The notes beneath the pieces are model-generated. The model was given only the letters and a program-made list of their open reading frames with translations, had not been told where the DNA came from and did not search any database. Source: a virus. From it: a stretch of DNA of 56,176 nt. This document shows, in pieces, positions 202 through 27,713 of the stretch (its first letter is position 1; the number at the start of each line of letters is the position of its first letter). The translations under genes and the position numbers were made by a program. The stretch covers positions 1 to 56,176 of the IMG/VR virus record IMGVR_UViG_3300050020_000040, one strand, 5' to 3'.

Positions 202-638
202 CTAGTCCCTGGGTTGTACGGCGTGGTCAAGTAGAGCCTCGCGGCGATCAGCCCTGGACCGTTGGCGTGCCAAGCGGAGCCGTCCCACCACCACGTCACG
301 CCGTACTTGGTGTCGAAGATGCGGGCGCCGACATACGGTGTGCTAGTGGGGGGGCCGCCGTGGATCGTCCCACCGGGAGCCAGGGGACCGAGCACAACCC
401 GGGCCGACTGTGACGAGCCCTGCAAGCGAGCCACCATCACAGGGTCGTTCACTTGGGGGCCGTAGTCGGCGCTGTAGTGTAGCCCCGTGGTTAGTGACGT
501 CGAGCCGTCCAAGTAGACGTCCACGGTGTTGGCACCGTGGACGCCCACGGCCCCAATCTCGCCGAACTGGTACGGGCCGTCGATGTTCCAATCGGGGCGC
601 AGTTGCGTCAGCCCACGGGCGATGTCAATGGCGCTCAT
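1..638 (-). CDS. Tail fibre / C1q-like receptor-binding protein (5' part; continues at the right end)
   Basis: The start ATG at 638 overlaps the TGA of the upstream tail gene (ATGA). The frame is open to base 1 and, through the 201-bp terminal repeat, continues in frame to the stop at 55819, giving a protein of 264 residues. The N-terminal part looks like the attachment domain of a phage tail protein, with repeated 'LDGS...' and 'VARLQGSSQ' strands. The C-terminal half, starting near GMATTGAGAKITVTLAGRYS, is a glycine-rich beta-strand domain of the C1q/TNF-like jelly-roll kind often found at fibre tips. Its place directly after the tail-tip genes fits a role in host binding. The general call is fairly safe; the receptor is unknown. 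Confidence 0.7.
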   Translation of the reverse strand, partial: MSAIDIARGLTQLRPDWNIDGPYQFGEIGAVGVHGANTVDVYLDGSTSLTTGLHYSADYGPQVNDPVMVARLQGSSQSARVVLGPLAPGGTIHGGPPTSTPYVGARIFDTKYGVTWWWDGSAWHANGPGLIAARLYLTTPYNPGTSSAVLAFDTKSYDPLGMATTGAGAKITVTLAGRYSVATYVKYGSTTSASNIYIMKNGALLYYSGNYP

Positions 639-1921
639 GATCCTGCCACGATGACGCGCCCGGATAGCGTGGTGGTGTCAGCGTGGTGCAACCCCACACT
701 GAGGGTGTCCACGATGAACGGCTGCGCGTTGAGGGCAAGCCGTGGATCGGTGACGGCGACCACGTCGTCAATGTCGAACTGGGGTGCGGGGGGTAGGATC
801 ACCGTCAGCGTCCGCGAAGACGCCAGCGACACCGCGAGGTCGTACTGCGCCTCGACGCCCGCCTGCGTTGAACTAGTGATGAGGCTGTCCGAGACGAAGC
901 TGGGCACGTCCCCCATCCCGCCGAGAACATACGTTGGGCTCAGTGGGTTATTGTCGAACGCCTCAGCCTGCACCGGGGTGGTGGTGGTGGCATTGTTCGG
1001 CCCCGTCGCCGACACGAACACGTCGTTGGTGATACCGTTTCGGGTCATCGAGAGCGTTACGGCAGAGGGCGTGCTGTAGGGCGAGCCGGAGACCGGATGA
1101 AGTTCCCCCGTGCTGGCGGAGACTTCGGCCGGGTTGAGGTTCCAGTTTACCGACAGGCTACTCAGTAGTCCGCCTGCGGGACTGCCGGGTGTTGGCTTCA
1201 TGGTGAGCCGACCGTTCACGTCGAAGAACAGCTCATAGCCCGCGCTGGCGGCCATGTCGAGACACGCCTTCCATGGGTCCTGCCCTTGCTGGTACACCCC
1301 CGCTGGACACGCCCACGCGCTCGTGCCCGAGAAGGACGGGGCGCTGATCCATGCTGGAACGCTTGCCCCTCCCGCGCCGGGTCCGTTCGTGTTCCAGACG
1401 GAGGAGAGGAGCGCGATCACCTCGCCGCCTAGCGAGCCGTCAGCGTTGGGCACCGTGTAGTTTCCCTTGAGCGCCCACTGCGAGAACGGCCACGAGCGAT
1501 CGTAGAGTTCCAGCGTCACCGCGAAGTCCGCGCCGATGTCTCCCGCTGTCGTGGTGGCGATGGGGAACGTCCCGATGGGCACCCAACCGTTCTGGCCCTG
1601 CACCGCCTGTCCAATGTCGGGGCAGATGCAAGTGAGGGATATCTGCACCTCGTTGCCGAACGGTGCCAGTGGGTCCTGCGGGGTGAGGGGTAGTTGGTTG
1701 TATGCCGTCCCGTTGAGCGTCACCTGTTGCGGCGGGACGCTGGGAACGAACTCTACCGTCAGCGATCCGGTCCGCCGCTGTTCGGAGTTGCGATCAGCGG
1801 TGAACGATCCCGCGCTCACGGGCAGCGTGATGGTCGTCGGCGCGTTGTTGCTCCACAGCGTCAACTGTGCGGCCCAGAGGTTGGACCCCCAGCGCAGGGC
1901 GTCGATGAAACCGTTACTCAA
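635..1921 (-). CDS. Minor tail protein (tail tip/baseplate hub type)
   Basis: About 428 residues rich in beta strands. The C-terminal stretch (FDIDDVVAVTDPRLALNAQ followed by FIVDTLSVGL) resembles the end of siphophage minor tail proteins that sit between the tape measure and the fibres. The frame stays open upstream into the preceding gene, but that part has shadow-like composition, so the real start lies near the previous stop. A strong AGGAGG at 1938-1943 is followed by no ATG/GTG. The first usable codon is TTG at 1921, 16 bases away; an ACG at 1930 would be better spaced. The stop overlaps the start of the next gene (ATGA). Confidence 0.7.
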   Translation of the reverse strand: MSNGFIDALRWGSNLWAAQLTLWSNNAPTTITLPVSAGSFTADRNSEQRRTGSLTVEFVPSVPPQQVTLNGTAYNQLPLTPQDPLAPFGNEVQISLTCICPDIGQAVQGQNGWVPIGTFPIATTTAGDIGADFAVTLELYDRSWPFSQWALKGNYTVPNADGSLGGEVIALLSSVWNTNGPGAGGASVPAWISAPSFSGTSAWACPAGVYQQGQDPWKACLDMAASAGYELFFDVNGRLTMKPTPGSPAGGLLSSLSVNWNLNPAEVSASTGELHPVSGSPYSTPSAVTLSMTRNGITNDVFVSATGPNNATTTTPVQAEAFDNNPLSPTYVLGGMGDVPSFVSDSLITSSTQAGVEAQYDLAVSLASSRTLTVILPPAPQFDIDDVVAVTDPRLALNAQPFIVDTLSVGLHHADTTTLSGRVIVAGS

Positions 1922-1941
1922 CAGGAACGTGGTGCTTCCTC

Positions 1942-4900
1942 CTAGACCGCTGGTCTCGGCGCGCCGATGGCAGTCACGGCCACGGAACGCACTGGCGCAC
2001 CCGGAGCCGATGGGTACAGGTTCGTGCTGTGCGCGGTGTTGCCGCTGCCACCTCCGCCTCCACCCGGCTGGGGCGCGAGGTTGAAGTAGTACGGGCCTTC
2101 TCCGTAGGGCTGCGAGACGAACACGGTACGCTGCAACAGCGTCAGCGCCTTGAATGCGTTGTACGTGGCGTTGCTGAACGTCTCGAACGTGGCCGAGAAG
2201 TCCGGCTGCTGCACGGCGTATTGCACGAGGTTCATGGTCGTCTGCCCGAGCACGGGGTGGGCTGTGGACTGGATGATCTGCGAGGGGTTCCACCCCGTAG
2301 GCTGTGCGGGTGCGGCAGACGCGGCGGGGTTGAGCGGGTCGAACTCCCAGAATCCTAGGCCCGTCGCTATTCCGGCACTTGCGAGCGCACTGTACGCTGA
2401 CTGGACGGTGTTGCTGCCCTCCGTGGCCTGCACCAGCGCCTGATAGGCGAATCCCGTGCCCGGCACCACCTCGTAGTCGTTGACGGTCACGCTCTGTGTC
2501 GTGGTTGGGAGTGTCGTTGGGTTGGCGGGGGATGCGTTACGGACGTACACACCGTCCGAACGTAGAATCACGATGCCCGCGGTGCCGAGTAGTCCACCGA
2601 CAGTCCACGCCGTGCCCGAGCCAGGGAAAACCCCGACCTCGTCCACGTAGTGGACTTCGGCATTAGCCACGGAGACAACGGTGAGGACCACCTCGAAGTA
2701 GGCGGCGTTTGACGGGGACGTAGCGGTCACGCTCGTCTGAGTGAATACCCCAGACGTTGCCTCTGTCACGAGTGACCCCGTCGAGGTTGAGATGGACACG
2801 TCTCCCGAGGTGAACCAGTGCAGCCCGACCGTGACGCCTCGTGATGTAGTGCCGGGGATGAAACTAGCCACTGCGCTGTATTGCGTACTCGGTTGACAAG
2901 CGTAGTACGTCGAGGCCGCAGACATGGTTCCGGTGGTGCTGTTGGCCGTCATGCGAAGCGAGTAGGCGCCATCTAGGTACTTGGTGGCAGACTGTGCTAG
3001 GGCACAGACGGTCCCCGTGAATGAACCGATGCCTGTTTCGAAGGACGAGTCTACCGCCGACACCATGTTGAGCGCGGACTGCGCCACAAGTTGGATCATG
3101 GGAAGATAGAAGCTAGCCATCGCCCCGTCACCTGGCAGGGAGTTGATGTCCTGTGTGGCCGTCGCCGTGAGGGTTGGGCTAGCCGGGAGGTCCAATGTGA
3201 CTGTGTACCCACCGTAGGCGTTGAAGTTGTTGCTCTCGGAGCCCGTCTCGGTGATGTTCACGTAGCTGCGGCAGACCGTCGAGGGCGCTATCGTCGTGGC
3301 GATCTGGTAGGTCGTGTTCGCGTTCGCCACCACGCCCGAATCGTCCAGCGCCGCCGAGGTGGCGGGGTTGAACCCACCAGCGCCGTATTGGGCCGCCGTG
3401 AATGTCCGCACTTGGTACGCCTGCTGTGCGGCCCCAGAGGGCAACGTCGCAGACCATCCGACAATTGGCAGCTGCTGGGCGACGGTGCCCGTGGGCTCGG
3501 TGACGGTGACGGTGGGGGCAGCCTGTGCCACCACGGAGAAGTCGGCCGCGAAGCCACCCTGTCCCCCGGCGTCCTGCGTGGCGACAGACCACGAGTAGGT
3601 CGAGCCGTCCGTCCACGACGCTGCGGGGAAGGTGTACGACTGGCCCGCGCCCGCGTTCCAGTAGACAGACGGCCCCGCCTGCCAGGACAGGGTGCCCGCG
3701 TTCCAGTAGACGTAGGCGCCACCGCCGACACGCCGACGCATGGCCCAGTTCAACTGCCCGCCCGTCGCGTTGCTCGGGTTGTACGTCCACGAGAATGTCG
3801 GCGTGCCCGAGAGGTCCAGGTACGTGCCAGATGCGGGAGTGCCAAGCGTGGGGGCGTTCGGGGGGCCTTCGGAGATCAGCGTGAATGGCGTGGCGTATGC
3901 TCCCTTCCCGTTAGCGTCCTGGTTGGCACACGACCAGGTGAATGTTCCCGCCACTAGCGGAAGCGTGTTCCACTGGGCAGCCGTGATCGTCACTGAACCA
4001 GCCGAAGACGAAACCCACGTCTGCGTCGTGGTCCATGCGGAGCCCGTCCAATAGTACGCGGCGTAACCGGGTGGTGTAACTTGGAGCGAGTAGTCGAGCT
4101 GCCCGCCAGCCGCACCGCCAGTGCTGTATGTCCACGAGAACGTCACGCCACCCGTGACGCAGTTTTGCGCGTTGCCGTTCACTGGAGCGGTAAGGGTAGG
4201 GGCGTTGGGTAGACCGCTCGTTGTGAACGACTGCCATGATCCGTACGCGGTCCCGTTGCTACTCCACGCCGCCACTTGGTAGTAGTACGTGGTGCTTGCC
4301 GTCAGTCCGGTGACGTTGGCGTAGGGACTGGCGGAGCCGGTGAAACTGCTGGGCGTTGAGCCCACGGGCGTACCGCCTGATGGTGTAGTGGAGATGTTGA
4401 AGTCACAGGACGTCGAGGGACCACCCGCCGCGTATAGGCCATTGTCGCTGACTGACCCGTTAAGGGTGGCCGTGGTGCTGGTGATCGAGGTGGCCGCGTT
4501 TGTGCTCGCGCTGGGCGGTAATGCGGACGTGATGAAATATGAGGTTCCGCCCCCAACCTCTGCGACACTGTTTGCGGCTAGGACTTGCCAGTAGTAGGTG
4601 GTGTTCGGGATGAGGCCGACGAAGGTGCCATAGACTGGGACGTTGCCTGCGTTGTATTGTATATTGCCTGGTGTCAGACCAGAACCAAACGAGGGAGTGG
4701 TACCGTACTCAAACTGGTAACTGGTTGGAAGTCCACCTGGATTGACGTAGCTAGCGCACGAAGCAGTAGTGGCGGTTACGCCCTGGACATTCTCGCCAAA
4801 AACACTAGGGGAGCTTCCCCCTCCCCCGGGTGTATAGTTGATGTATGCACCGATGGCCCCGATGGCCGTGAGACCGCTGAGGGTGGACGGGCCGCTGACG

Positions 4901-15824: not shown

Positions 15825-16453
15825 GGCCGCGTGACGTGCCACTCTGCGGGCGGTCGGCAGTCAGGATCGCCACAAGCGCATCCCTCGAAGGGGTACATGT
15901 GATGATGGATCACGGGGGGCGTGTGGACGTGAGGGTCAGGATACCCGCGCTCACGGAGTACCGACACCATCGTCACGTCGAGGCGGTGCCAGTCGCGGGT
16001 GCTCCCGCTGCGATGAACTTGGCAGCGTCCGTCCACGGCTCCCATGAGGTCAGGCTGCGCGGCGAGTAGTTCGGAGCGAAACCGAGTGCATCCCAGCGAG
16101 ATCGTCAGGAGGTTGCCACCCTCAGCGCTGAACCCTGGCCCGGGGAACGGGAACAGGCACCACGGCTCGGGGCAGGCGGCCAACTCCTCGACGACGCCCG
16201 CCCTGATCTCGATGTCGTGCTCAATGAGCATGAAGTCCTCGCCGCCACTCCACAGGGCAGCGACCGTGTCGAAATAGACGTCCTCACACTCCCGGTGGTG
16301 GCAGTGCCTACGCTGGTCGTTACAGTTGATGATCCCGCAGTCGGCGGGGAGATCACACCGTGCAACCTTGATGCGCTCGCATGTTGGAGCGTAGGTGTTG
16401 AGAGCGGCGTCTACCTGCGGGTAGATGCCCGTGAAGGGACAGACGACGCGCAA
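15821..16453 (-). CDS. Glycosyltransferase-like protein with EHD motif
   Basis: 210 residues when started at TTG 16453, preceded by GGGAGG at 6-base spacing. A longer GTG frame from 16501 would run through the terminator hairpin. Core motif FMLIEHDIEIRAGV, then ACPEPWCLFPFPGP. Cys/His-rich segments 'CHHRECED' and 'CACGDPDC' suggest bound zinc. It is a paralogue of 12383-12967, so the two bracket the sugar block. Confidence 0.6.
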   Translation of the reverse strand: MRVVCPFTGIYPQVDAALNTYAPTCERIKVARCDLPADCGIINCNDQRRHCHHRECEDVYFDTVAALWSGGEDFMLIEHDIEIRAGVVEELAACPEPWCLFPFPGPGFSAEGGNLLTISLGCTRFRSELLAAQPDLMGAVDGRCQVHRSGSTRDWHRLDVTMVSVLRERGYPDPHVHTPPVIHHHMYPFEGCACGDPDCRPPAEWHVTRP

Positions 16454-16474
16454 CGCTTCCCTCCCAGAAAGAGT

Positions 16475-16498
16475 GCCCCGATATTGACGCCTCGGGGC
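16475..16498 (-). terminator. Hairpin downstream of the capsid gene
   Basis: The minus strand reads GCCCCGA, a 10-base loop, then TCGGGGC (7 perfect pairs), followed by CACTCTTTCT. It lies about 50 bases after the capsid stop and could act as an attenuator limiting transcription from the capsid gene into the glycosyltransferase block. Confidence 0.55.
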
Positions 16499-16549
16499 CA
16501 CGGCGTTGTCCGGGCTAAAGGCCAGCGGCCCTCACCCGATCATTTCAGG

Positions 16550-18055
16550 TTATTCCGAAGCCGCGATGTTGGAGATCACGCCGCAGCTCAAGGGAGCGCG
16601 GTTGACCAGGGTCTCCAGGGACCGAATGCCCCAGATCTCACGCGGGCCGCTCGGGCCACTGGACGGCATGTCCGTCGCAGCGTAGGGGAACTCAGCGTAG
16701 TCCCGGTGGGTGCGGACTTCGAAGACGTTGCCGACATCCGAGCCGGGGACGTTCGTCAGGACATCGGACCTGGCGATGATGGTTCCCGGGGGAACGCTCG
16801 GGTGAACTTCGATCCGGATCGAAGCACCGCTCAGCGCCTTGTTGAGGTAGGTGCCGATGAAACCAGACGCGAAGATGTTGGAACGTCCATCACCGTTCGG
16901 CTGGAGGTAGAGGGTTGCGGCCGGGCTGGCCAGCAATCCACCACCGAGGTCCGACGCCTGCTGGGCGTTCATCATGTAGGCGGTCGGCGACTGCTTGATC
17001 GCGTTGTAAATCGAGAGGTTGAGCTGATCGAACAGCGCAACACTCGACCCGTTCACGCTCAGCGTGGCACCGTCTGCCGAGACCCAAGTCGCACCCGAGC
17101 CGGTCCCCTGTCCAGGAGTGACAACACCGGAAGGTCCGTAGTCACCGAGGATGGTGGCGAGCATCGAGTTGAAGACGAGGGTCGAGTACGAGGTGTCCAC
17201 GGTGCTCAGGGTCGGCACGACCGGGTAGAGGTCCGGGACCTCGTAGGTCGGGAGGGCCTGAGCAGTCGACGGGACGCTCGTGATCAAGACCGTGTTGGTC
17301 GTGGTCGTGGTGAAGTAGACCTGGTTCGCGCTGGACGAGCCGACGAACCAGTGGTAGCCGACAGCACCCTTGACGGCAGGCACGAAGGCGCCGACCGCGT
17401 TGGCGGAGCTGGTGCTACCAGTGGTCAAGGTGGCATTAGCCGAAGCGGGGCCAGAGCCGCCGTTGTAGTAGTTCCATCCCGAGATGGGCTGGCACTTCAC
17501 GTTGACGCTGGCGGCAGAGCCGATGGAGCCGCCCGTGGTCTTGCCGGAGATGCCGTTAGTTGCGGTGCCCGCGGAGACCACGACGGTCCCGATCGCAGGC
17601 AGAGCGTAGTTCTGGGCACCACAGCCGAGGGCGCGGTCCTCAAGGTTGAGCAGGTTTGTGAGAACCTGGGCGACCATGAGCGCGTGGGCGTCGGCGTAGC
17701 CATGGGCGATGTCGATCGAGTCCTGGGTGATCATGCCCTTCAGTTCGATCGGCACGTAGTTGGAGAAGCTGTCGATCTCATCGACAACCACCATGTTACC
17801 TGCCGTGTCGTAGCCGGGGAAGATCGAGGGCTGCGAGTTGAGGACGTTGAGGAGAGTACGCCAAACCGTGAACTTTGCGCCCTCGGTCGAGTTGACGCGG
17901 GGGAGCTGGTCACGCAGGGGCGTGAACTTCGGGAGCAGGGAGACCACGGGGCCGAGGTCATAGCCGACGACACCGAGGCCGGAAGTCCAGCCGGTGGTGC
18001 TCAGGGCCTTCTTGACCGAGCCGATGGTCTCTTCGCTGATGTTCTGGAGGTCCAT
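16550..18055 (-). CDS. Major capsid protein (HK97-like)
   Basis: 501 residues. The N-terminal 'SISEETIGSVKKAL'-like helix, the 'LRDQLPRVNSTEGAKFTVWR' strand, a 'QVLTNLLNLEDRAL' spine-type helix and the C-terminal 'EVRTHRDYAEF' P-domain region fit HK97-fold capsid proteins of actinophages. Residues about 160-290 are a Gly/Ser/Thr-rich insertion (GTVVVSAG...YHWFVGSSS) that looks like an added Ig-like surface domain. It follows the scaffold/protease genes directly. There is an upstream gap of about 36 bases containing its ribosome site. Confidence 0.9.
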   Translation of the reverse strand: MDLQNISEETIGSVKKALSTTGWTSGLGVVGYDLGPVVSLLPKFTPLRDQLPRVNSTEGAKFTVWRTLLNVLNSQPSIFPGYDTAGNMVVVDEIDSFSNYVPIELKGMITQDSIDIAHGYADAHALMVAQVLTNLLNLEDRALGCGAQNYALPAIGTVVVSAGTATNGISGKTTGGSIGSAASVNVKCQPISGWNYYNGGSGPASANATLTTGSTSSANAVGAFVPAVKGAVGYHWFVGSSSANQVYFTTTTTNTVLITSVPSTAQALPTYEVPDLYPVVPTLSTVDTSYSTLVFNSMLATILGDYGPSGVVTPGQGTGSGATWVSADGATLSVNGSSVALFDQLNLSIYNAIKQSPTAYMMNAQQASDLGGGLLASPAATLYLQPNGDGRSNIFASGFIGTYLNKALSGASIRIEVHPSVPPGTIIARSDVLTNVPGSDVGNVFEVRTHRDYAEFPYAATDMPSSGPSGPREIWGIRSLETLVNRAPLSCGVISNIAASE

Positions 18056-18091
18056 GTGGAAGTAGATTCCTTTAGGTGTGGGGCGGGAGGC

Positions 18092-19816
18092 TTACTGGTA
18101 GCGCGGCTTGAGGGTTTCGAGGAACGCGAGCCTCTGAAGTCGCGTCCGCTCTGAGGGGTCGGTGGCAACTGCAAGTTGCTTCTCCACCAACTCCAGCGCC
18201 GGGTTCGATCCGGCTCCCTGGTCGCGAAGATGTGCGCCACTCTCGGGTCCGCCGTGCGGGCGGTCACTCAGGAGCGGTCCACCGGGGGCAGGGCTGGTCT
18301 CCACCTTGACCAAACGATCCTCCAGCGACTTGACCACCTTCTGGTGGCCCTCTTCCGCTGCTTCGATCGCATCGGCCACGGCCTTACGGACCGTCTCTGC
18401 CATGTTGTCTAGTGCCTTGGCCACGGGGGCCACGGGTGCCGTAGGTGCCGCAGCGGCAGTCGCAGCGTTGGCCGCGGCCGCATCGGCCTCGTCAGGGGTC
18501 GGAGCCTGGGCACCATCGCCGTCAGCCGGCGCAGGAGCATCCGCAGTCTCAGCGGGCTTCCCCGCAGCCGTGGTGACGAGGTCGTCCGGGTCCACCACGC
18601 CGATCAGGTCGCCATTGGCGTTGTAACAGGCAACCATCGGGTCACCCTTGGCCTTGGTGACGCGTTCCTTGGCCTGGTCGAACGAGAGCATTTTGGATGC
18701 CACCGTCACGCCGATGGGAGCGTGCGAGAGGTCGTATGCCGCGATCAGCGGCTCATTGGGCGTCTGGGGCAAGGTGGGCACCTCCTGGGCCTTCACAACG
18801 GCGTCCTCGACGGGGGCCGCAGGTAGAGTGGCGAGTACGTTGGTAAGAGACGCGATGGCGTCCCGGATGGCCTGCTCGTTGGCGCCAGACAGGACGCGGC
18901 CGGCCTTCTTGACGGCAAACGCCCCCTCGACGGTTTCCAGAGCGGTCAGCGGGAAGGTCTGCATGGCCTTGATGACCCCGCCGTCAGCGGCAAGCTCAGC
19001 CTCGGTCGTCTCGCCAACGGCGAAGGACGCGAGCACCCCGATGGCGAAGTCAATCGCCGAGGAGGCGTCCTCCAGATCCCAGGCGTTGTCGGCAGCCTCG
19101 GATTCTCCGACGGCCACCTCCTGTCCCTCGCGATCGGCCAGATACTCTAGGGCGAGCTTGGCGCGTCCCAGGATGGCCGTCCACTTCTGGGCGGTGGCCG
19201 CATCGACGTTCTCCCAACTCTCCGAGCCGGGCGTGCCAGCGTCAACTGGGCTTCCGTCCTCGACCACGATGGTGCTAGCGTCCAGGTCGGGATCGCCGTC
19301 TGCCTTGGTAACGGGCTCCACGGGTGGCGCCAATGGCGCCTCAATGGGGTTGGCCATTAGCTTCTCCTGTGATTTCGACACGTCAATGCCGAACTTCTTG
19401 GCTGCCGACTTGATCTTCGGCATGGCCTTGTCTCCGAACGGGCTCTGCGGGGCACGGGCCAGGGCGTTCCGGGTGTGCGCCGCGTCATAGATGGGGAAGT
19501 GCCGCAGTGACCGCGGCGTGGTCTTGCCACTCTCGTCCTTCGTGCCGCCGGGCTCGATGTAGGCGAAGTCGCTGTCAGGGTGATCGTTCTGTGTTGCCGC
19601 CGAAGCTTCCGCCTTGGCGACGAGCGAGGGGTGCTGCGGGGGACGCTTCATCAGCGCGATGCTGAGTGGGTCCTGCGGGTCGTTGGACTTCATGATGGTG
19701 AAGAGCATCCCCGACGCCGGTCCTTTCACGAGATCCATGCGGGGGATGTCGGCGGCGAACATCTCCTTGAAGATCGGCTCCTCTTCCTCGTCGGTCAGGC
19801 CGAACTCGTCATCCAT
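18092..19816 (-). CDS. Scaffold-like protein with DUF6582-type N-terminal domain
   Basis: 574 residues. Around residues 85-145 it has 'FAYIEPGGTKDESGKTTPRS', 'HFPIYDAAHTRNALARAPQS' and 'KIKSAAKKFGI', a segment common in prohead-associated phage proteins. The rest is Ala/Glu/Pro-rich and largely helical, with a coiled-coil end (AVADAIEAAEEGHQKVVKSL) typical of scaffolding proteins removed during maturation. It lies between the protease-like gene and the capsid gene. Confidence 0.7.
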   Translation of the reverse strand: MDDEFGLTDEEEEPIFKEMFAADIPRMDLVKGPASGMLFTIMKSNDPQDPLSIALMKRPPQHPSLVAKAEASAATQNDHPDSDFAYIEPGGTKDESGKTTPRSLRHFPIYDAAHTRNALARAPQSPFGDKAMPKIKSAAKKFGIDVSKSQEKLMANPIEAPLAPPVEPVTKADGDPDLDASTIVVEDGSPVDAGTPGSESWENVDAATAQKWTAILGRAKLALEYLADREGQEVAVGESEAADNAWDLEDASSAIDFAIGVLASFAVGETTEAELAADGGVIKAMQTFPLTALETVEGAFAVKKAGRVLSGANEQAIRDAIASLTNVLATLPAAPVEDAVVKAQEVPTLPQTPNEPLIAAYDLSHAPIGVTVASKMLSFDQAKERVTKAKGDPMVACYNANGDLIGVVDPDDLVTTAAGKPAETADAPAPADGDGAQAPTPDEADAAAANAATAAAAPTAPVAPVAKALDNMAETVRKAVADAIEAAEEGHQKVVKSLEDRLVKVETSPAPGGPLLSDRPHGGPESGAHLRDQGAGSNPALELVEKQLAVATDPSERTRLQRLAFLETLKPRYQ

Positions 19817-20306: not shown

Positions 20307-20483
20307 CTAGAGTGGCCTGTAACTGACCCAGAGGTCGGGCGGGAAGATGGCGACCTTCCGCTTGCCAATCCGCAGGATCAGCTTGCCGTTGACGTTCTCG
20401 ACGTCCGTAGCGGTGATGTGCTGGGTGAACTCGCACCCACCGTGGTCACGGCAGACGATCTCAAACCGGAACTCGGGCTTCAC
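20307..20483 (-). CDS. Small protein, unknown function
   Basis: 58 residues from a GTG overlapping the previous stop (GTGA); its stop TAG is part of the TAGGAG site of the protease gene. It contains FRFEIVCRDHGGCEFTQHIT and an 'LILRIGKRKVAIFPPDLW' strand pair. Tight coupling on both sides and GC-rich third positions support it as real. Confidence 0.7.
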   Translation of the reverse strand: MKPEFRFEIVCRDHGGCEFTQHITATDVENVNGKLILRIGKRKVAIFPPDLWVSYRPL

Positions 20484-20575
20484 GACTGGACGAGAATCCA
20501 GGGCAGTGGGTCGCTGGTCAGGACCCCCGAACGCATCTCGGTCATCTTGGCCACTCGGGCCGCTACGTCACTCAT
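20480..20575 (-). CDS. Tiny protein after the portal gene, unknown function
   Basis: 31 residues (MSDVAARVAKMTEMRSGVLT...). The ATG at 20575 overlaps the portal stop by eight bases and its stop overlaps the next start, so it fits exactly in a coupled chain. No family was recognised. Confidence 0.6.
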   Translation of the reverse strand: MSDVAARVAKMTEMRSGVLTSDPLPWILVQS

Positions 20576-23500
20576 TGTCCTCTCCCTGGTCTGTGTCATC
20601 GGTGGTGTCGTCGGAGGTGCCGCCAGTCAGCGATTCGATGTTCGGGCTCGATGCACACCGGCAGTTGTGTGTTATAATGCCATTGGCGGTGTACCACCCT
20701 GCCGCCGTTTGGAGGTTGTAGACTTGGCCCGTAAATTTGACCCGGACGACCCGGACAAGCTGATCACACGCTACGTCGCCGGAGAGAGCGAGAAGGCGCT
20801 CGCAGAATCCTGCGGCGTCAGCCGCACAGCCATCCGCCGTCTGCTCTTGGCGCGGGGCGTCGCCCCTAGGGGTCGTCGCGAGGGCATGGTGGTCCGCATG
20901 GCCAACACCAGCCCCGAGGAGCGTCAACGGCTCACCGATGCCGCCCACGCCGCCGTCCGAGGCTGCCACTGGAGCGACGAGGTTCGTCGGGCACGCGCTT
21001 TGGGCGTCGAGGCTCATCGCTCCAACACCTCGCCGGTCGAGGTCATCCTGTTCGAGATGCTCCGGGCTCGCGTGGTCGGGGATGCGATGGTCCCCCAACT
21101 GGCGATTGGCCCGTACAACGTGGACCTGGCTGTTGGTCCCATCGCCGTGGAAGTCCTCGGGGGCGGTTGGCATCGGTACAAGCACCACGGGAAGCGCCTG
21201 CGCTACCTGCTCGATCGTGGGTGGAACGTGATCTACATCTGGGTCACGGGACCCCGTCCACTCCAGGCCGGTGCTGCTGAGGACGTACTGGCCTACCTGG
21301 AGCGCACCCACCGCGACCCAACCTTCCGGGGTCGCTATCGGGTGATTCGGGGTGGCGGAGAGTTCGTGGCCGAGGGCGGTCTCGATGACGACGAGATCCC
21401 CGACAAAATCCCGCTCGGTGGACGCCTGCGGCGCAACCTCACCTCGGGGCGGTACTACTCTGACCCAGCCCGGTAGGCAGCGAGGATGCTCCGGCAGGTC
21501 CGGGAACGCGTCTACCGTGTACGGGCCACCGTCGGCGTTCGCCTGGCAGTCGTCACAGGGATCATCCGCCACGAGCCAGTCGAGCATCTCGATCCCGTTC
21601 GCGGCGTAGGTCTGCATACTCGCGGACTGAGCGGCACGAGCGCATTCGGTGTCAGCGATGGTGTAGGCTCGCGAGGCGTCACCGCCCACCGAATCCCGGA
21701 GCCCCATGGCGATAGAATCCATCGAGGCGCCAGAGGCGACCCCCTGGGCGATCTGGGAGCCGATCTGGTCGATGGTGGAGGATGCGATGCCCTTCAGGGT
21801 GAACCCGAGGCCCGAGAGCACCGCGTCTAGGCCAGGGTCGCTGATCGTGGCCGCCGCGCCAGCCCATCCGGGTGTCCATGCTCCCCAGTCGGTGTCAGCC
21901 ATGCTCGGAGGCAGGCTGCCTTGCTGGTTGGCGCTGAGGTTAGTCGGGCCAGCCTTGGTGACCTTCGCTGGAACCGTGGCCGCAGCGATCAGCGCCCCGC
22001 CAACCCAGGCGTCTGTCGCTGCTGTCGTGAGCACCGACTGTAGCTGCGAGAGGTCGAGGTCGGCGGGCGTCAGGTTCCCCTGGGCGAGCCGAGACTGTGA
22101 TGGCAACGCACTGGCAAGCGCCTGGCCAACCAGCGGGGCGTAGTGCCCCACGATCTGGTCAAGCAGGGCGTCGGTGGGGTGCTTGGCCTTCCTGACCGCT
22201 ACTGATCCCGGATAGGCTACTGCCGCAGTAGGGTTAGCCCGCGAGAAAGGGTTTGCGCTCTTGGCGGCCTCCGCGAAGGCGGCGTCCACCTGAGCCCGAG
22301 AGGCACAGCCGACCAGTGCCTTGGTGATGTGCTCTGACACATCGGCGGGGATCACCGTGGAGACGAAGGGCCGAATGGGCTTGCCAGTCTTGACGCGGTT
22401 GCGGGCGAAGTCGCGCCAGCGGCCGAGTTCCTTCTGGATTGCCACCCGGTCGTCCTCGTCGTCCTCATCGTCCAGTAGGTCCATGCCCACTAGGCCAGTC
22501 TCGGACGTGATGCCGGCAGTCTCGCTCTTGGCCACCGCTGCAATCGTGGTGGGTGCGGGAGTGGCCGCCAGCTCGTCCTGCGGGAACTGCGGCTCGTCCG
22601 GGTTGAACGTCGAGACCAGCGCGCCGGGAGTGTTGAGCGTCTTTCCGGGAGCCACGCCGGCGGCAGCCTCGAAGGGCTCCTTACCGGTGTCCACCAGCGG
22701 TGTCGTGTCCAGCGGCCCACCTGTGGCGGGGTTGATCGGGCCGGCGATGGCGAACAGGTTGGCCAGCGGGATCGGCCCCGCCCGAGAGGACATGATGAAC
22801 CGTGGCACGGGCCGGTCAGAATCGACATCCAGCCCGAACATCTCGGAGCGCCATTCGTCCACGGTCACAGCGCCGCCCTCGGTGCCGATCTTCCACACAT
22901 TGGCGTCAGCGACGCGATCCTCTTTCTCGGCCGAGTAGGAGGTCTGCATCTTCACCGGCAGCCCCAGGTCGTCCTGGAGGTAACTGGTGATGAGCCCGTC
23001 GAGATCCTCACACATCGGACGATCAGCGATCCGAGCCTGGACGTCTAGTTGCGTCTCTCCCGTAGCGCGGTTGACGTCCATCGTGACACCGAGGTCCTGC
23101 GGCACCACCCCGAAGGCGGCGCAACCCTTGCGGAATCCCCACAAATAGGCTTCCTCGTCGAACGCCTCGGCACGGATCGGGGTGAACTTCGTCCCCTGTG
23201 GCACGACGTGGGCCTGCACCTTCTTCTGCTGGTCGCCCATGAGCTTGGCGTTCAGCCTAGCCTGGAAGTCGTCCAGCTTGGCGGGGTCGTCCCAGGATTC
23301 CGGCGCCTCCAGCCAACCGGCGGGGAGGTTCGACGTGTTCCAGTATTCCAACAGGTGGAGCGTCATCCGCTCGTCGATGTTGGCGGTGGCGATCACGTCC
23401 TCGATGGGCGCCCAGCCGTAAGGCGAATCCTCCTGCGGGAAGTAGGGCGCATAGATGACGTCCCGGTCAGCCAGCCAGTCCCACGGCACGCCGTTGGCGA

Positions 23501-24125
23501 ACTGGAGGTAGGCCGGGGCGTCACCCACCGGCAGACGGCCGTAGTAGTCGAGCATCGGGGCGATCGTGGTCCCGTCGATGACCTCTAGCGCCATCACACG
23601 TCCGAGCATGTCCCGTCGCTTGTAGAGCGTCAGGGCGTCATAGCGGAGACGTGAGTTCAGCGCCTTGGCAAGCCACCGCTTGTAAGGCAGCCTACCGTCA
23701 GGCTTCTCGATCGCCTTGCGTCCAGTTTGCAGGGCGAGGTCGATGTCGACGTCGCCCTCTTCGCCGTCAGCGGGGACGATCGCCCAGTCGAACGAACGGA
23801 TCGAGTTGATGCGGTGGGCGATGCACATCCTGGCAACGTCCCAGGTCGTCGTGAAGGCCCGGAGCGTGTCGAACGAGATCCTGCCCGACCGAGGGCGGAC
23901 GGTGATGTTGGCGCCGGTCTGGTAGTCGAACTGCCGCGGCTCCGCGCCATAGCCGAAGTACGGGTAGAGCGGATGGCCTGGCGGGAACGGAAGCTGCCAG
24001 CCCATGCCCTGATTCTGTAGGGACTGCTCGATGTTCGGGGGCGCGTTCGTGCCGTTCACGGGCGACGGGATCGGATAGTCCGACGCCTTGTGGACGCGGC
24101 TGATCTCCATGGGGCCGATTCTCAC
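20568..24125 (-). CDS. Portal-MuF fusion protein precursor containing an intein
   Basis: 1185 residues from a GTG at 24125 that overlaps the terminase stop (GTGA) behind AAGGAGG. Residues about 1-480 are a SPP1-type portal (for example WDVARMCIAHRINSIRSFDW and 'DDPAKLDDFQARLNAKLMGD'). A Pro/Ala linker follows, then a MuF/SPP1 gp7-like minor head domain from about residue 700. The MuF signature HPxCRC is split: EHPR is followed by an intein (residues 883-1154), and CRCASSP resumes after it. Splicing would give EHPRCRCASSP and a mature protein of 913 residues. Portal-MuF fusions occur in phages of Gram-positive hosts; the product forms the DNA entry ring and is present in the head. Confidence 0.93.
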   Translation of the reverse strand: MRIGPMEISRVHKASDYPIPSPVNGTNAPPNIEQSLQNQGMGWQLPFPPGHPLYPYFGYGAEPRQFDYQTGANITVRPRSGRISFDTLRAFTTTWDVARMCIAHRINSIRSFDWAIVPADGEEGDVDIDLALQTGRKAIEKPDGRLPYKRWLAKALNSRLRYDALTLYKRRDMLGRVMALEVIDGTTIAPMLDYYGRLPVGDAPAYLQFANGVPWDWLADRDVIYAPYFPQEDSPYGWAPIEDVIATANIDERMTLHLLEYWNTSNLPAGWLEAPESWDDPAKLDDFQARLNAKLMGDQQKKVQAHVVPQGTKFTPIRAEAFDEEAYLWGFRKGCAAFGVVPQDLGVTMDVNRATGETQLDVQARIADRPMCEDLDGLITSYLQDDLGLPVKMQTSYSAEKEDRVADANVWKIGTEGGAVTVDEWRSEMFGLDVDSDRPVPRFIMSSRAGPIPLANLFAIAGPINPATGGPLDTTPLVDTGKEPFEAAAGVAPGKTLNTPGALVSTFNPDEPQFPQDELAATPAPTTIAAVAKSETAGITSETGLVGMDLLDDEDDEDDRVAIQKELGRWRDFARNRVKTGKPIRPFVSTVIPADVSEHITKALVGCASRAQVDAAFAEAAKSANPFSRANPTAAVAYPGSVAVRKAKHPTDALLDQIVGHYAPLVGQALASALPSQSRLAQGNLTPADLDLSQLQSVLTTAATDAWVGGALIAAATVPAKVTKAGPTNLSANQQGSLPPSMADTDWGAWTPGWAGAAATISDPGLDAVLSGLGFTLKGIASSTIDQIGSQIAQGVASGASMDSIAMGLRDSVGGDASRAYTIADTECARAAQSASMQTYAANGIEMLDWLVADDPCDDCQANADGGPYTVDAFPDLPEHPRCLPGWVRVVPPRGEVAPQASTERDFVGDLVVIETALGHELSATPNHPIATPEGWVAVGALQVGQYVLSSTGLEWTGSRDPDVDHVPPTIEQVAQALPVVLVPMPTAPEDFHGDGTNSQVHVVRANRQLGDHRIPDHASPEHLEQDDLDRRGVGAMSLDAQSACPTNLVAPVAASDGGVGGIGEPLTLLGAGVGHADHHALATTPRGDAPRQEQTADGCAADAAGFCERLLALSGDVACDQLVRVVRVKFTGQVYNLQTAAGWYTANGIITHNCRCASSPNIESLTGGTSDDTTDDTDQGEDNE
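20670..20678 (+). promoter_or_regulatory. Extended -10 promoter TGTTATAAT for the antisense endonuclease gene
   Basis: A perfect extended -10 element (TG-T-TATAAT) lies 46 bases upstream of the endonuclease's TTG start and 33 bases upstream of its GGAGG. On the minus strand the same bases encode part of GIITH, the invariant C-terminal intein motif. No good -35 is visible, as expected for extended -10 promoters. Confidence 0.7.
20724..21476 (+). CDS. Homing endonuclease, Vsr-like/EDxHD family, antisense inside the intein
   Basis: 250 residues from TTG 20724, with GGAGG at 20711-20715 (8-base spacing); the same frame is open upstream to 20418 but lacks a ribosome site there. Residues 12-45 form a helix-turn-helix (LAESCGVSRTAIRRLLLARG). 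About 60-100 is a NUMOD-like segment (RLTDAAHAAVRGCHWSDEVR). Residues 104-175 are the Vsr-type nuclease core: PVEVILFEML, 'QLAIGPYNVDLAVGPIAVEV' (D134, E143), GGGWH (H150) and 'LLDRGWNVIYIW'. This resembles the I-Bth0305I (EDxHD) homing endonucleases linked to phage inteins. The gene lies wholly inside the intein DNA on the other strand; its TAG stop is complementary to the intein's Leu2 codon. It would cut intein-less MuF genes and drive intein homing. Confidence 0.9.
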   Translation: MARKFDPDDPDKLITRYVAGESEKALAESCGVSRTAIRRLLLARGVAPRGRREGMVVRMANTSPEERQRLTDAAHAAVRGCHWSDEVRRARALGVEAHRSNTSPVEVILFEMLRARVVGDAMVPQLAIGPYNVDLAVGPIAVEVLGGGWHRYKHHGKRLRYLLDRGWNVIYIWVTGPRPLQAGAAEDVLAYLERTHRDPTFRGRYRVIRGGGEFVAEGGLDDDEIPDKIPLGGRLRRNLTSGRYYSDPAR

Positions 24126-25849
24126 GCTGCCTCCTTGCCACAGAGCATGCACACGCCGTTGCGCCGCCGATAGTGACTACACGCCGCCTCGGGTCCGCTG
24201 GGCACGGCGACGGTTGGCCTCTGGGCTGCCCGGCAGTGGACGCAGAAGCCGTCGTTCCAGAAGTGCCTGCCGTCATCACTCTGCGGGCATCCCTCGCCGG
24301 GAACGTCCGCCCACCCGCCAGCCACGACGGTGGGCGATGCGTCGAGTTCTCGCTGCCAGAGGTTGCCCATCTGAACCCCCAGCATCATCCGCTGGAGTGC
24401 TTGGCTCATGCCGTCCACCTGGTCATCGTGGGCAGCGGTCGGAAACCCGGCGGTCTCTTCCACGAACCCCCCTACGTCGAACAGCGCCACGTCCTTGGTC
24501 GGCAGGAACACGTTGCCCGCCTCGACGAAGGGTGAGACTGCCCGCGCTCGGCTGACCTTGGATTCCTTGGGGTTGACTGGGATGATGCCGCCTATCTCTT
24601 TCTTGAGGCTGTCGATCACCGCCGGCCCGTTGGCCTTGTCCTCGATCAGCTTGGCGGTCGCCTGCGGCCACTTCGCCGTCAGGGTCCGCACCGCCTTGAG
24701 CGTCTCGGTGAAGGTCATACGATCGCGTACCTGATCGACCAGCCACGCCTGAGCGCCTTTGTACGCCCACACTTGGCCTACCACGAAGTCGGTCCCCGTG
24801 GTGTCCTTGAACGTCATGTCCCAGGACTGGAGCAGGTTGCGCCCGTCCTCGATGCGGTAGGCCAAGCCATCGCGCGACCAGAGCGGCTCGCTGTAGCGAA
24901 CCCACCATGCGCGGTTGAACACGTCGCCCGCATCGGGAGAAGGGCGCCCCTGGTAGAGCGCACTCCAAATGCGAGGGGAGGTGGCGGCCTTGGTCGCCTC
25001 CCACTGGGCGTCGGTCCTGCCTCGGGCGCTCCGCAGGTACTCGCCAGGGGTCCGACCGAGCACGTCCGATTGCCCTTGCTCAGGGTGGTGGTCGGCCTGC
25101 GCGGGAATGTTCAACACGATCCAGCGGTCGTAGTGCGGAAGTCCAGCCTTGGCATCCTCGGCCTGTTGCGCCAAGAGCCTCCCGGCTAGGTCGTTCTCAT
25201 GCCATCTCGTCAGGACCACAATCACCGGGGCGTTCGGGGCGAGACGAGGTCGGGCGACCGACTGCCAGGTGTTCCACGCCTGCTCGCTCAGGAGTTCGCT
25301 GTCGGCAGCGCGGTAGTCCTTCACCGGGTCGTCTATCACCAGCAGATCAACGGGGCGACCCGTGATGGCCCCGTAGAGGCCAACGGCCGTCAGGCTACCC
25401 CTATGGGGCGGCGCTAGGGTCCAGCGTCCCGCAGCGCGGCTCTCCTGGCTGACACGTAATCCGAGGTCGATCGTTCCGTCCGTCCCGTCGAAGGTAACCA
25501 CGTCCCCTCGAACCTGAGACGCGAACACCCGAGCGATGTCGTCCCCGTAGGAGATCATCACCACTCGGCTGTTCGGGTTCCGCAGTAGCCACCACTCCAC
25601 CCCATACCGTGAGATCCGGGTGGACTTGCCCTCCTGGGGGGGCATCGAGATGATGAGGCGGTTGCAGCACCCTTCAGCGACGTCCACGAGGGCTGCGTCG
25701 ATCAGGTCGAGCGCCGGCGTCTGCACCGTCTCGGGGTCGAGCGCCTTGGCCAGCTCGCCAGGTGTCGCCCAGCGTCGCGGTGGAAGCGGCGGGACGAAGT
25801 GTCGAGCCGCGACAGTCCAGGGATTCGAGGGATGGTATACTTCAGGCAA
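24122..25849 (-). CDS. terL: Terminase large subunit with C-terminal zinc-ribbon extension
   Basis: 575 residues. ATPase part: Walker A MPPQEGKS (about residues 68-75), Walker B LLVIDDP, coupling motif VVLTRWHENDLAGRL. Nuclease part: SWDMTFKD, LIEDKANG and AAHDDQVDGMSQAL supply the acidic metal-binding residues. After the nuclease, the last about 70 residues carry two Cys/His clusters (CPQSDDGRHFWNDGFCVHC and CSHYRRRNGVCMLCGK), an uncommon addition. The start is TTG at 25849 in the divergent promoter region; no good ribosome site is visible, so the true start could be slightly inside. It packages DNA through the portal encoded next. Confidence 0.95.
   Translation of the reverse strand: MPEVYHPSNPWTVAARHFVPPLPPRRWATPGELAKALDPETVQTPALDLIDAALVDVAEGCCNRLIISMPPQEGKSTRISRYGVEWWLLRNPNSRVVMISYGDDIARVFASQVRGDVVTFDGTDGTIDLGLRVSQESRAAGRWTLAPPHRGSLTAVGLYGAITGRPVDLLVIDDPVKDYRAADSELLSEQAWNTWQSVARPRLAPNAPVIVVLTRWHENDLAGRLLAQQAEDAKAGLPHYDRWIVLNIPAQADHHPEQGQSDVLGRTPGEYLRSARGRTDAQWEATKAATSPRIWSALYQGRPSPDAGDVFNRAWWVRYSEPLWSRDGLAYRIEDGRNLLQSWDMTFKDTTGTDFVVGQVWAYKGAQAWLVDQVRDRMTFTETLKAVRTLTAKWPQATAKLIEDKANGPAVIDSLKKEIGGIIPVNPKESKVSRARAVSPFVEAGNVFLPTKDVALFDVGGFVEETAGFPTAAHDDQVDGMSQALQRMMLGVQMGNLWQRELDASPTVVAGGWADVPGEGCPQSDDGRHFWNDGFCVHCRAAQRPTVAVPSGPEAACSHYRRRNGVCMLCGKEAA
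25833..25841 (+). promoter_or_regulatory. Extended -10 promoter TGGTATACT, leaderless arrangement
   Basis: TGGTATACT followed by TCAGGCA and then the ATG at 25849: only 7 bases separate box and start codon, so the transcript would begin at or near the A of ATG. The block GGTATACTTCAG recurs at 26288-26299 before the next plus-strand gene. Confidence 0.75.
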
Positions 25850-27500: not shown

Positions 27501-27507
27501 CCGAGGG

Positions 27508-27577
27508 TGGCAGGCCGCGGATTCGAACCGCGCATGCCTGGGGTTATGAGCCCCGGCTAGGCCCAGCCTTGCCTGCT
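27508..27577 (-). tRNA. tRNA-Met (anticodon CAT)
   Basis: The minus strand folds as a cloverleaf. Acceptor GCAGGC/GCCTGC pairs 2-7, with an A/C mismatch at pair 1. D arm GGCT-loop-AGCC. Anticodon loop CTCATAA closed by GGGG/CCCC. T arm CGCGG-TTCGAAT-CCGCG. At about 70 bases it is short: the D loop is small and position 26 or one anticodon-stem pair is missing. CCA is not encoded. It probably supports translation of the phage genes or replaces a host tRNA that is cleaved. Confidence 0.75.
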
Positions 27578-27713
27578 ACGCTCAGTGCCCGTCCCGGCCA
27601 CCGGGGCGGCGCATCGGACCGTTTCTCCCTGGCGCTCCGACTGTCGGTCTTAGGGTGGATTCCGCTACGCCGTTCTCCCCGGCGGGTGGTCCGGTTCGTT
27701 TGGATGCCTGCCG

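Follow-up and report, generated by a model that had tools for sequence, protein, structure and literature searches.

The window, by which we mean the whole analyzed stretch of 56,176 nucleotides of viral DNA from an IMG/VR record, contains on its minus strand the gene of a portal-MuF fusion protein interrupted by a predicted intein, and on its plus strand, inside the intein-coding DNA, a gene for a putative nuclease. Nuclease residues are numbered from the TTG codon at 20724 and intein residues from Cys1 at 21477-21479. The features considered here are the following:

20568-24152, minus strand: ORF of the portal-MuF fusion protein, the extein hosting the intein (Pfam Phage_portal 7e-15 and Phage_Mu_F 3e-6; PHROG portal 7e-53)
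20664-21479, minus strand: intein of 272 aa, Cys1 to Asn272 (Pfam Intein_splicing 1e-5; NCBIfam intein N- and C-terminal models)
20724-21476, plus strand: nuclease gene of 250 codons with a TTG start and a TAG stop, wholly within intein-coding DNA (profiles 3hrl 1e-6 and 3r3p 1e-6; AF2; VIA-align)
21474-21476, plus strand: nuclease stop TAG, complement of the intein Leu2 codon CTA (sequence)
21138-21161, both strands: dual-coded block flagged at the outset, nuclease PIAVEVLG (139-146) and intein PEDFHGDG (107-114) (codon-position rates, codon usage)
21339-21353, both strands: second dual-coded block, pairing TPNHP of intein block B (43-47) with RVIRG (206-210) and similar residues of the nuclease (tally of 153 elements; position 1 outvaries position 3 in the nuclease C-terminal region)
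20712-20726, both strands: intein block F QVYNL (252-256), opposite the Shine-Dalgarno sequence GAGGTT (GGAGGT at 20711-20716) and the TTG start (synonymous codon bias)
20673-20678, plus strand: TATAAT, -10-like, with TGT upstream (extended -10 shape), opposite the intein Ile-Ile codons ATT ATA of block G (sequence, bias)

Elsewhere in the window, a tRNA-Met gene (anticodon CAT) lies on the minus strand at 27505-27578.

The intein extends from Cys1 (21477-21479) to Asn272 (20664-20666), is flanked by HPR and CRC, and is inserted between HPR and C in the MuF domain. It carries the Hint motifs Cys1, TPNHP (block B), QVYNL (block F) and GIITHN followed by the extein C, which are kept across alignments A1 and A5. 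In its AF2 model, the Hint core has pLDDT values above 90 and the middle part (residues ~104-225) is mostly of low confidence, with the linker at about 50 or below; the best Foldseek matches of the model are inteins (RecA/DnaB mini-inteins, E 5e-4). By its motifs, its Hint fold and the empty alleles described below, the minus-strand element is classified as an intein, and protein splicing is predicted. An in-frame LAGLIDADG or HNH endonuclease domain in the linker was considered and rejected, as Pfam, PHROG and NCBIfam gave no endonuclease match there and the linker pLDDT is below 50. The central linker is predicted to be disordered, and its sequence is, to judge from the overlap, mostly dictated by the nuclease.

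The nuclease gene is convergent to the intein host gene, and its predicted product combines an N-terminal HTH with a Vsr-like or I-Bth0305I-like nuclease domain. The AF2 model has a mean pLDDT of 91.2, and VIA-align placed residues ~100-218 closest to 1cw0 (Vsr, Z 10.3), 3hrl (NGO0050, 10.1), 1vsr (Vsr, 9.4) and 3r3p (I-Bth0305I, 9.3), which occupy the first four rows of its list, above all other structures; residues 1-47 resemble HTH domains (GcrA, Z 7.0). The nuclease family profile matched 3hrl and 3r3p at E ~1e-6 (1.3e-6 for 3r3p), and the Foldseek E-value of the model was only 0.037. In the nuclease alignment A4, the candidate active-site residues E106, D134, E143 and H150 show little or no variation, one locus (L059) having Asp at 143. 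Both products belong to real families, as seen from blocks and profiles for the intein and from the Vsr/I-Bth0305I fold and profile for the nuclease.

The two genes share one codon register, in which nuclease positions 1, 2 and 3 are intein positions 3, 2 and 1. PIAVEVLG was said to lie exactly opposite PEDFHGDG, and both segments indeed occupy 21138-21161 with coinciding codon boundaries; the pairing claimed between the TAG stop and the Leu2 codon is likewise correct. The overlap itself was correctly recognized in the earlier note, and the extent given for it (21030-21240) proved too small, with nearly the whole intein being double-coded. In all 169 distinct elements, the nuclease stop faces a Leu (96) or a Ser (73) codon, as the codon register demands, and the residue that faces it is found 1 to 33 residues past Cys1 (163 elements in which Cys1 was located by pattern).

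That an antisense frame can be open by chance in GC-rich DNA, as had been pointed out, is illustrated within the window itself, which has 64% GC: a 645-aa plus-strand ORF (16217-18154) lies in register opposite a 501-aa minus-strand ORF, probably by chance. In DNA of this composition, the mere openness of an antisense frame in register counts for little, and the nuclease ORF might on that basis be taken for a chance shadow of the intein. We consider this hardly credible in view of the model confidence (pLDDT 91), the Vsr/I-Bth0305I fold, the profile E-value of ~1e-6, the presence of the pair in elements with 41-45% GC, and the bias at synonymous sites in the start codon, the ribosome site and the -10-like element, and we rejected it on conservation and fold. 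What is beyond chance, on this comparative evidence, is the conservation of a single register and of the two products across loci.

The tblastn searches with each of the two products returned 124 and 128 phage records. Among the 23 loci fetched first, which come from Gordonia, Salmonella, Escherichia, Pantoea, Vibrio, Pseudomonas, Klebsiella, Edwardsiella, Haemophilus/Aggregatibacter, Rhodococcus and Acinetobacter phages, from virus Rctr197k and from one IMG/VR contig, 22 contain the gene pair in this register. Relatives of the nuclease were confirmed in at least 457 IMG/VR contigs; in the best 80 of these (L024-L103), from which L030 was excluded for failing the motif pattern, the intein frame was open in that register in 79 of 79 loci examined. 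A further set (L151-L230) comprises the best 80 of at least 524 confirmed contigs. Altogether, 231 sources, contig repeats included, yielded 214 loci with both genes, seven with the intein alone, one with the nuclease alone and nine with neither; block G was located in 201 of the 214, of which 169 are distinct. The common register holds in 213 of the 214 loci, the exception (L120) being a frame-broken record marked 'UNVERIFIED'. Two loci, L117 and L118, were left out as other inteins, in terminase-like genes.

In bacterial genomes, a scan with an intein query located 29 loci, the nuclease being present in 27, and 18 of 396 further actinobacterial genomes had a match. The actinobacterial loci that match most of the intein (L239-L243, with further pieces in L257 and L258) have both genes in the same register, and just two matches came from plasmid records. 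The elements interrupt genes that include those of MuF proteins and portal-MuF fusions; the Rctr197k element (L015 616-2025) interrupts one for a dCMP/cytidine deaminase, whose 'head morphogenesis' annotation is probably due to the intein. At position 3656 of L097, a second nuclease-like motif (YSIDFALPKGKIALEV) was observed beside the antisense one. Among the phage records whose annotation tables were read, the antisense gene is annotated as a CDS solely in the free-standing case of Acinetobacter phage P1068, which makes it an annotation blind spot in phage records.

Dual coding had been expected to appear as reduced synonymous change on both strands, and this pattern was found at the VAVEV/DFHGD block, in support of the interpretation given in the note. 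Over 210 codons from 42 independent pairs, the difference rates of VAVEV at nuclease positions 1, 2 and 3 were 0.129, 0.010 and 0.029, compared with 0.214, 0.149 and 0.469 at the respective own positions of the single-coding N-extein (42 independent pairs, limited to extein identities of at least 50%). Only the first nuclease position varies here, through changes that are mostly silent in the intein and Val/Ile-neutral in the nuclease. Over most of the nuclease, position 3 is the most variable (p3/p1 of 1.2-2.0), so the nuclease leads there; from +51 to +75 past the Glu, position 1 outvaries position 3 (0.294 vs 0.204), and the intein therefore leads.

Codon usage points in the same direction. 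Across 164 elements, the third-place Val of the block is GTG in 143 of 144 cases (52 expected), the Ala is GCC in 154 of 157 (53.5 expected), the first-place Val is GTC in 117 of 120 (41.6 expected) and the Glu is GAA in 149 of 163 (58.1 expected). In addition, the codons TTA, CTA and TCA, which would stop the intein, never occur in the nuclease frame of 160 elements, against 704 expected from their own extein usage, a deficit that arises partly by construction because loci were retained only if both ORFs were found; in the 61 elements found by nuclease sequence alone, the count is again 0, with 251 expected. Both frames are, by these measures, under purifying selection, and at two blocks or more (DFHGD/VAVEV, TPNHP/RVIRG) it acts on them together.

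The near-identity of the 15 bp [GA]TC GCC GTG GA[AG] [GA]TC across very different phages could also reflect a signal at the DNA level, such as a binding site, in place of double coding. We regard this as highly improbable, since the variation tracks codons: it consists of Val/Ile exchanges at position 1 and of silent changes in the mini-inteins and in the P1068 locus, and one subgroup (that of L056) has lost the motif.

The natural losses of either partner bear directly on double coding. According to the earlier note, PEDFHGDG would be a mere shadow if it occurred only alongside the antisense gene; however, [DE]FHGD is kept in all three mini-inteins whose antisense nuclease is dead, with 5 stops in L105, 2 in L155 and 12 in L186. 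The Phe codon is TTT in all three, which turns the opposite Glu into Lys; the TTT of L105 is not independent evidence because this locus was found via the TTT pattern, and L155 and L186 were found without that bias. In L186, five of five base changes from the block consensus are silent for the intein. This locus (386-3388) seems to have two inteins in one MuF ORF, with a longer intein upstream of the FHGD mini-intein (2453-2968). The motif DFHGD or EFHGD was absent from all 14 matches to other inteins (two of them in one ORF) in the 396-genome actinobacterial sample. Being kept in three of three nuclease-dead mini-inteins and absent from these 14, it is therefore a motif of this intein lineage and not of inteins at large. 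Nor is it indispensable, because a subgroup with both genes (L056, L063, L087 and L096) has lost DFHGD, its nuclease block codons being free to vary. In four short inteins (L122, L152, L163 and L190), the nuclease ORF is truncated in its HTH part and [VI]AVE[VI] is kept; these genes are possibly decaying or HTH-less.

The converse loss is found in Acinetobacter phage P1068 (L018), whose intein-free MuF gene ends in CKCRAKLIIEIPDNLINQ and is followed directly downstream by a free-standing, convergent nuclease gene. This relative, annotated as a hypothetical CDS (L018 1309-2202), has 12 stops in its antisense frame and relaxed block codons (GTG GCG CTG GAA TTA). As far as the compared loci tell, decay has thus gone both ways, with mini-inteins whose nuclease is dead on one side and a single free-standing nuclease lacking an intein on the other.

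These losses also weigh on the idea that the block is constrained by the nuclease alone, DFHGD being a passive shadow in a free intein linker. In favour of this reading, VAVEV in this register permits only [DHNY][FL][DHNY][GSRC][DHNY] on the opposite strand, the motif falls in a stretch of the AF2 intein model with pLDDT around 50, and the other inteins lack it. As a full account it is nevertheless very unlikely, given that the nuclease shows hardly any synonymous variation where Asp, His, Gly and Asp are required in the intein, that the three mini-inteins have retained [DE]FHGD without a functional nuclease, the L186 changes being all silent, and that the block codons are relaxed in the intein-free P1068 locus; it was rejected on the mini-inteins and on codon choice. 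DFHGD is, on this evidence, now selected on the intein strand, and its origin as the nuclease's shadow is possible.

The start signals of the nuclease lie within conserved intein blocks as well. Among the 169 distinct elements, the distance from the 3' end of the intein to the nuclease start is exactly 60 nt in 138 of 168 cases, a constancy explained by the start codon complementing the block F His (or Gln) codon and by the Shine-Dalgarno sequence complementing the block F Asn-Leu codons. Compared with the extein of the same ORF, the block F Leu (Asn-16) is CTC in 117 of 148 cases (35.5 expected), the block F His (-20) is CAT in 60 of 84 (31.8 expected) and the Ile at Asn-3 is ATA in 49 of 98 (14.5 expected); the Tyr controls at -18 and -9 and the Asn codon at -17 have no clear bias. 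Of 169 elements, 135 have a TATAAT match of at least 5/6 no more than 55 nt from the intein end; among control windows, 57 of 664 have one. Because a generic sigma-70 scan of 20400-21700 gave no -35/-10 promoter pair, we claim the -10-like element alone. To judge from this codon bias, the intein accommodates the Shine-Dalgarno and -10-like sequences through its choice among synonymous codons in blocks F and G.

Evidence on mobility comes mainly from the Guernseyvirinae, for whose relatives empty alleles of the insertion site were found. A query with the joined Snoke MuF sequence matched 1,023 phage records, 862 of them over at least 80% in one piece, that is, with no intein between; among the 60 matches listed, the intein-free MuF of Escherichia phage SZH-1 is 97.5% identical. 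The joined extein of the window itself has only distant relatives, with single-piece matches covering at most 79% of the query. Intein identity exceeds N-extein identity in 20 of the 21 pairs formed by seven intein-bearing Guernseyvirinae (the L119 intein being offset by two codons in this comparison), as in Snoke and VSe101 (intein 95.7%, N-extein 68.5%, C-extein 81.0%); the remaining pair is reversed (80.4% vs 92.0%). The higher intein identity could partly reflect double constraint instead of transfer, but double constraint alone is insufficient because intein divergence differs so much at equal extein divergence, the Snoke/STP-1 intein identity being 78.3% at the same N-extein identity of 68.5%. 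In Kagunavirus fEg-Eco06 (L020 1117-2010), a divergent related element sits elsewhere in the MuF gene and the Snoke site is empty. The intein-free alleles and the incongruence between intein and extein fit homing.

Both genes could be real and the nuclease still serve another purpose, as a regulator, in the exclusion of competitor phages or in some service to the host phage, and its HTH N-terminus would suit such a role. We judge this unlikely, because the gene lies inside the intein in every element except the P1068 locus, the intein is patchily distributed with near-identical empty alleles, the catalytic fold is that of a known homing endonuclease, and PADLOC gave no match. The locus is very probably a mobile intein that has no homing endonuclease among its own domains and instead relies on one encoded by a separate complementary-strand gene, which is read in the codon register of the intein. 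From the observed anatomy and selection, we infer a course of transcription, cutting, homing and splicing in which antisense transcription from within the intein would yield the nuclease transcript, the HTH-Vsr nuclease would be translated and its HTH part would bind the intein-free MuF site, the Vsr-like domain would cut that allele, repair would copy the intein into it, and protein splicing would then restore the head protein. Since the two cores share bases, single mutations can affect both functions.

A more comprehensive reading, to which we assign about an even chance of holding in full, is that these elements form a widespread class of phage inteins with a complementary-strand endonuclease gene in exact register, in which the catalytic cores and even the start signals of two unrelated superfamilies would be fixed on shared bases (the nuclease C-terminal motif falling on block B, its Glu strand on DFHGD, the ribosome site and start on block F, and the -10-like element on block G), and in which DFHGD would be a former nuclease shadow that the intein has put to its own use and that persists after the nuclease is lost. 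In many phages, single bases serve the cores of two unrelated proteins, a self-splicing insert and a DNA-cutting enzyme that probably spreads it, since both are encoded in one register. Intein homing endonucleases decay easily, since their loss is harmless to the host protein; here a large part of the nuclease lies in bases required by the splicing element as well, and its decay may be slowed.

An endonuclease-bearing intein is a known kind of element, and its coding layout appears, as far as checked, to be without precedent: the open-access literature searched yielded no description of an antisense in-register endonuclease gene in an intein, and priority is uncertain because one relevant preprint on actinobacteriophage inteins lay outside that search. 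Inteins with an in-frame LAGLIDADG or HNH domain likewise unite a Hint domain in a conserved protein with an endonuclease on one element, whereas here the endonuclease is an opposite-strand gene and the linker has no endonuclease sense. With I-Bth0305I and the EDxHD (Vsr-like) homing endonucleases, the nuclease shares the fold of the catalytic domain and profile similarity (3r3p); it differs in its N-terminal region, which is an HTH here, and in being encoded antisense inside an intein, EDxHD homing endonucleases being known from an intron or from the gap between split genes. Some group I introns carry an antisense homing endonuclease gene, and there too a self-removing element contains an endonuclease gene on the strand opposite its host; the intron's own product is RNA, whereas here both strands code for protein in one register. 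The nearest case in the literature consulted is the ShiLan insertion, which also has a homing-type endonuclease in a frame overlapping an open host frame, namely a same-strand, out-of-frame HNH gene without a splicing element and with no ribosome site found (PMC11855218). In contrast, the present gene lies on the opposite strand of a true intein by its motifs, has its own Shine-Dalgarno and -10-like sequences, and shares bases with a second conserved core. The system offers, from nature and in replicate, two enzyme cores encoded sense and antisense in one register. The Rodin-Ohno hypothesis reportedly derives the two classes of tRNA synthetases from sense/antisense coding at remote origins, with catalytic cores likewise on complementary strands in codon register. 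In the present case, however, the pair exists today, and its paired losses, intein without nuclease and nuclease without intein, are built-in controls, so that ideas on overlapping genes and the Rodin-Ohno proposal become directly testable.
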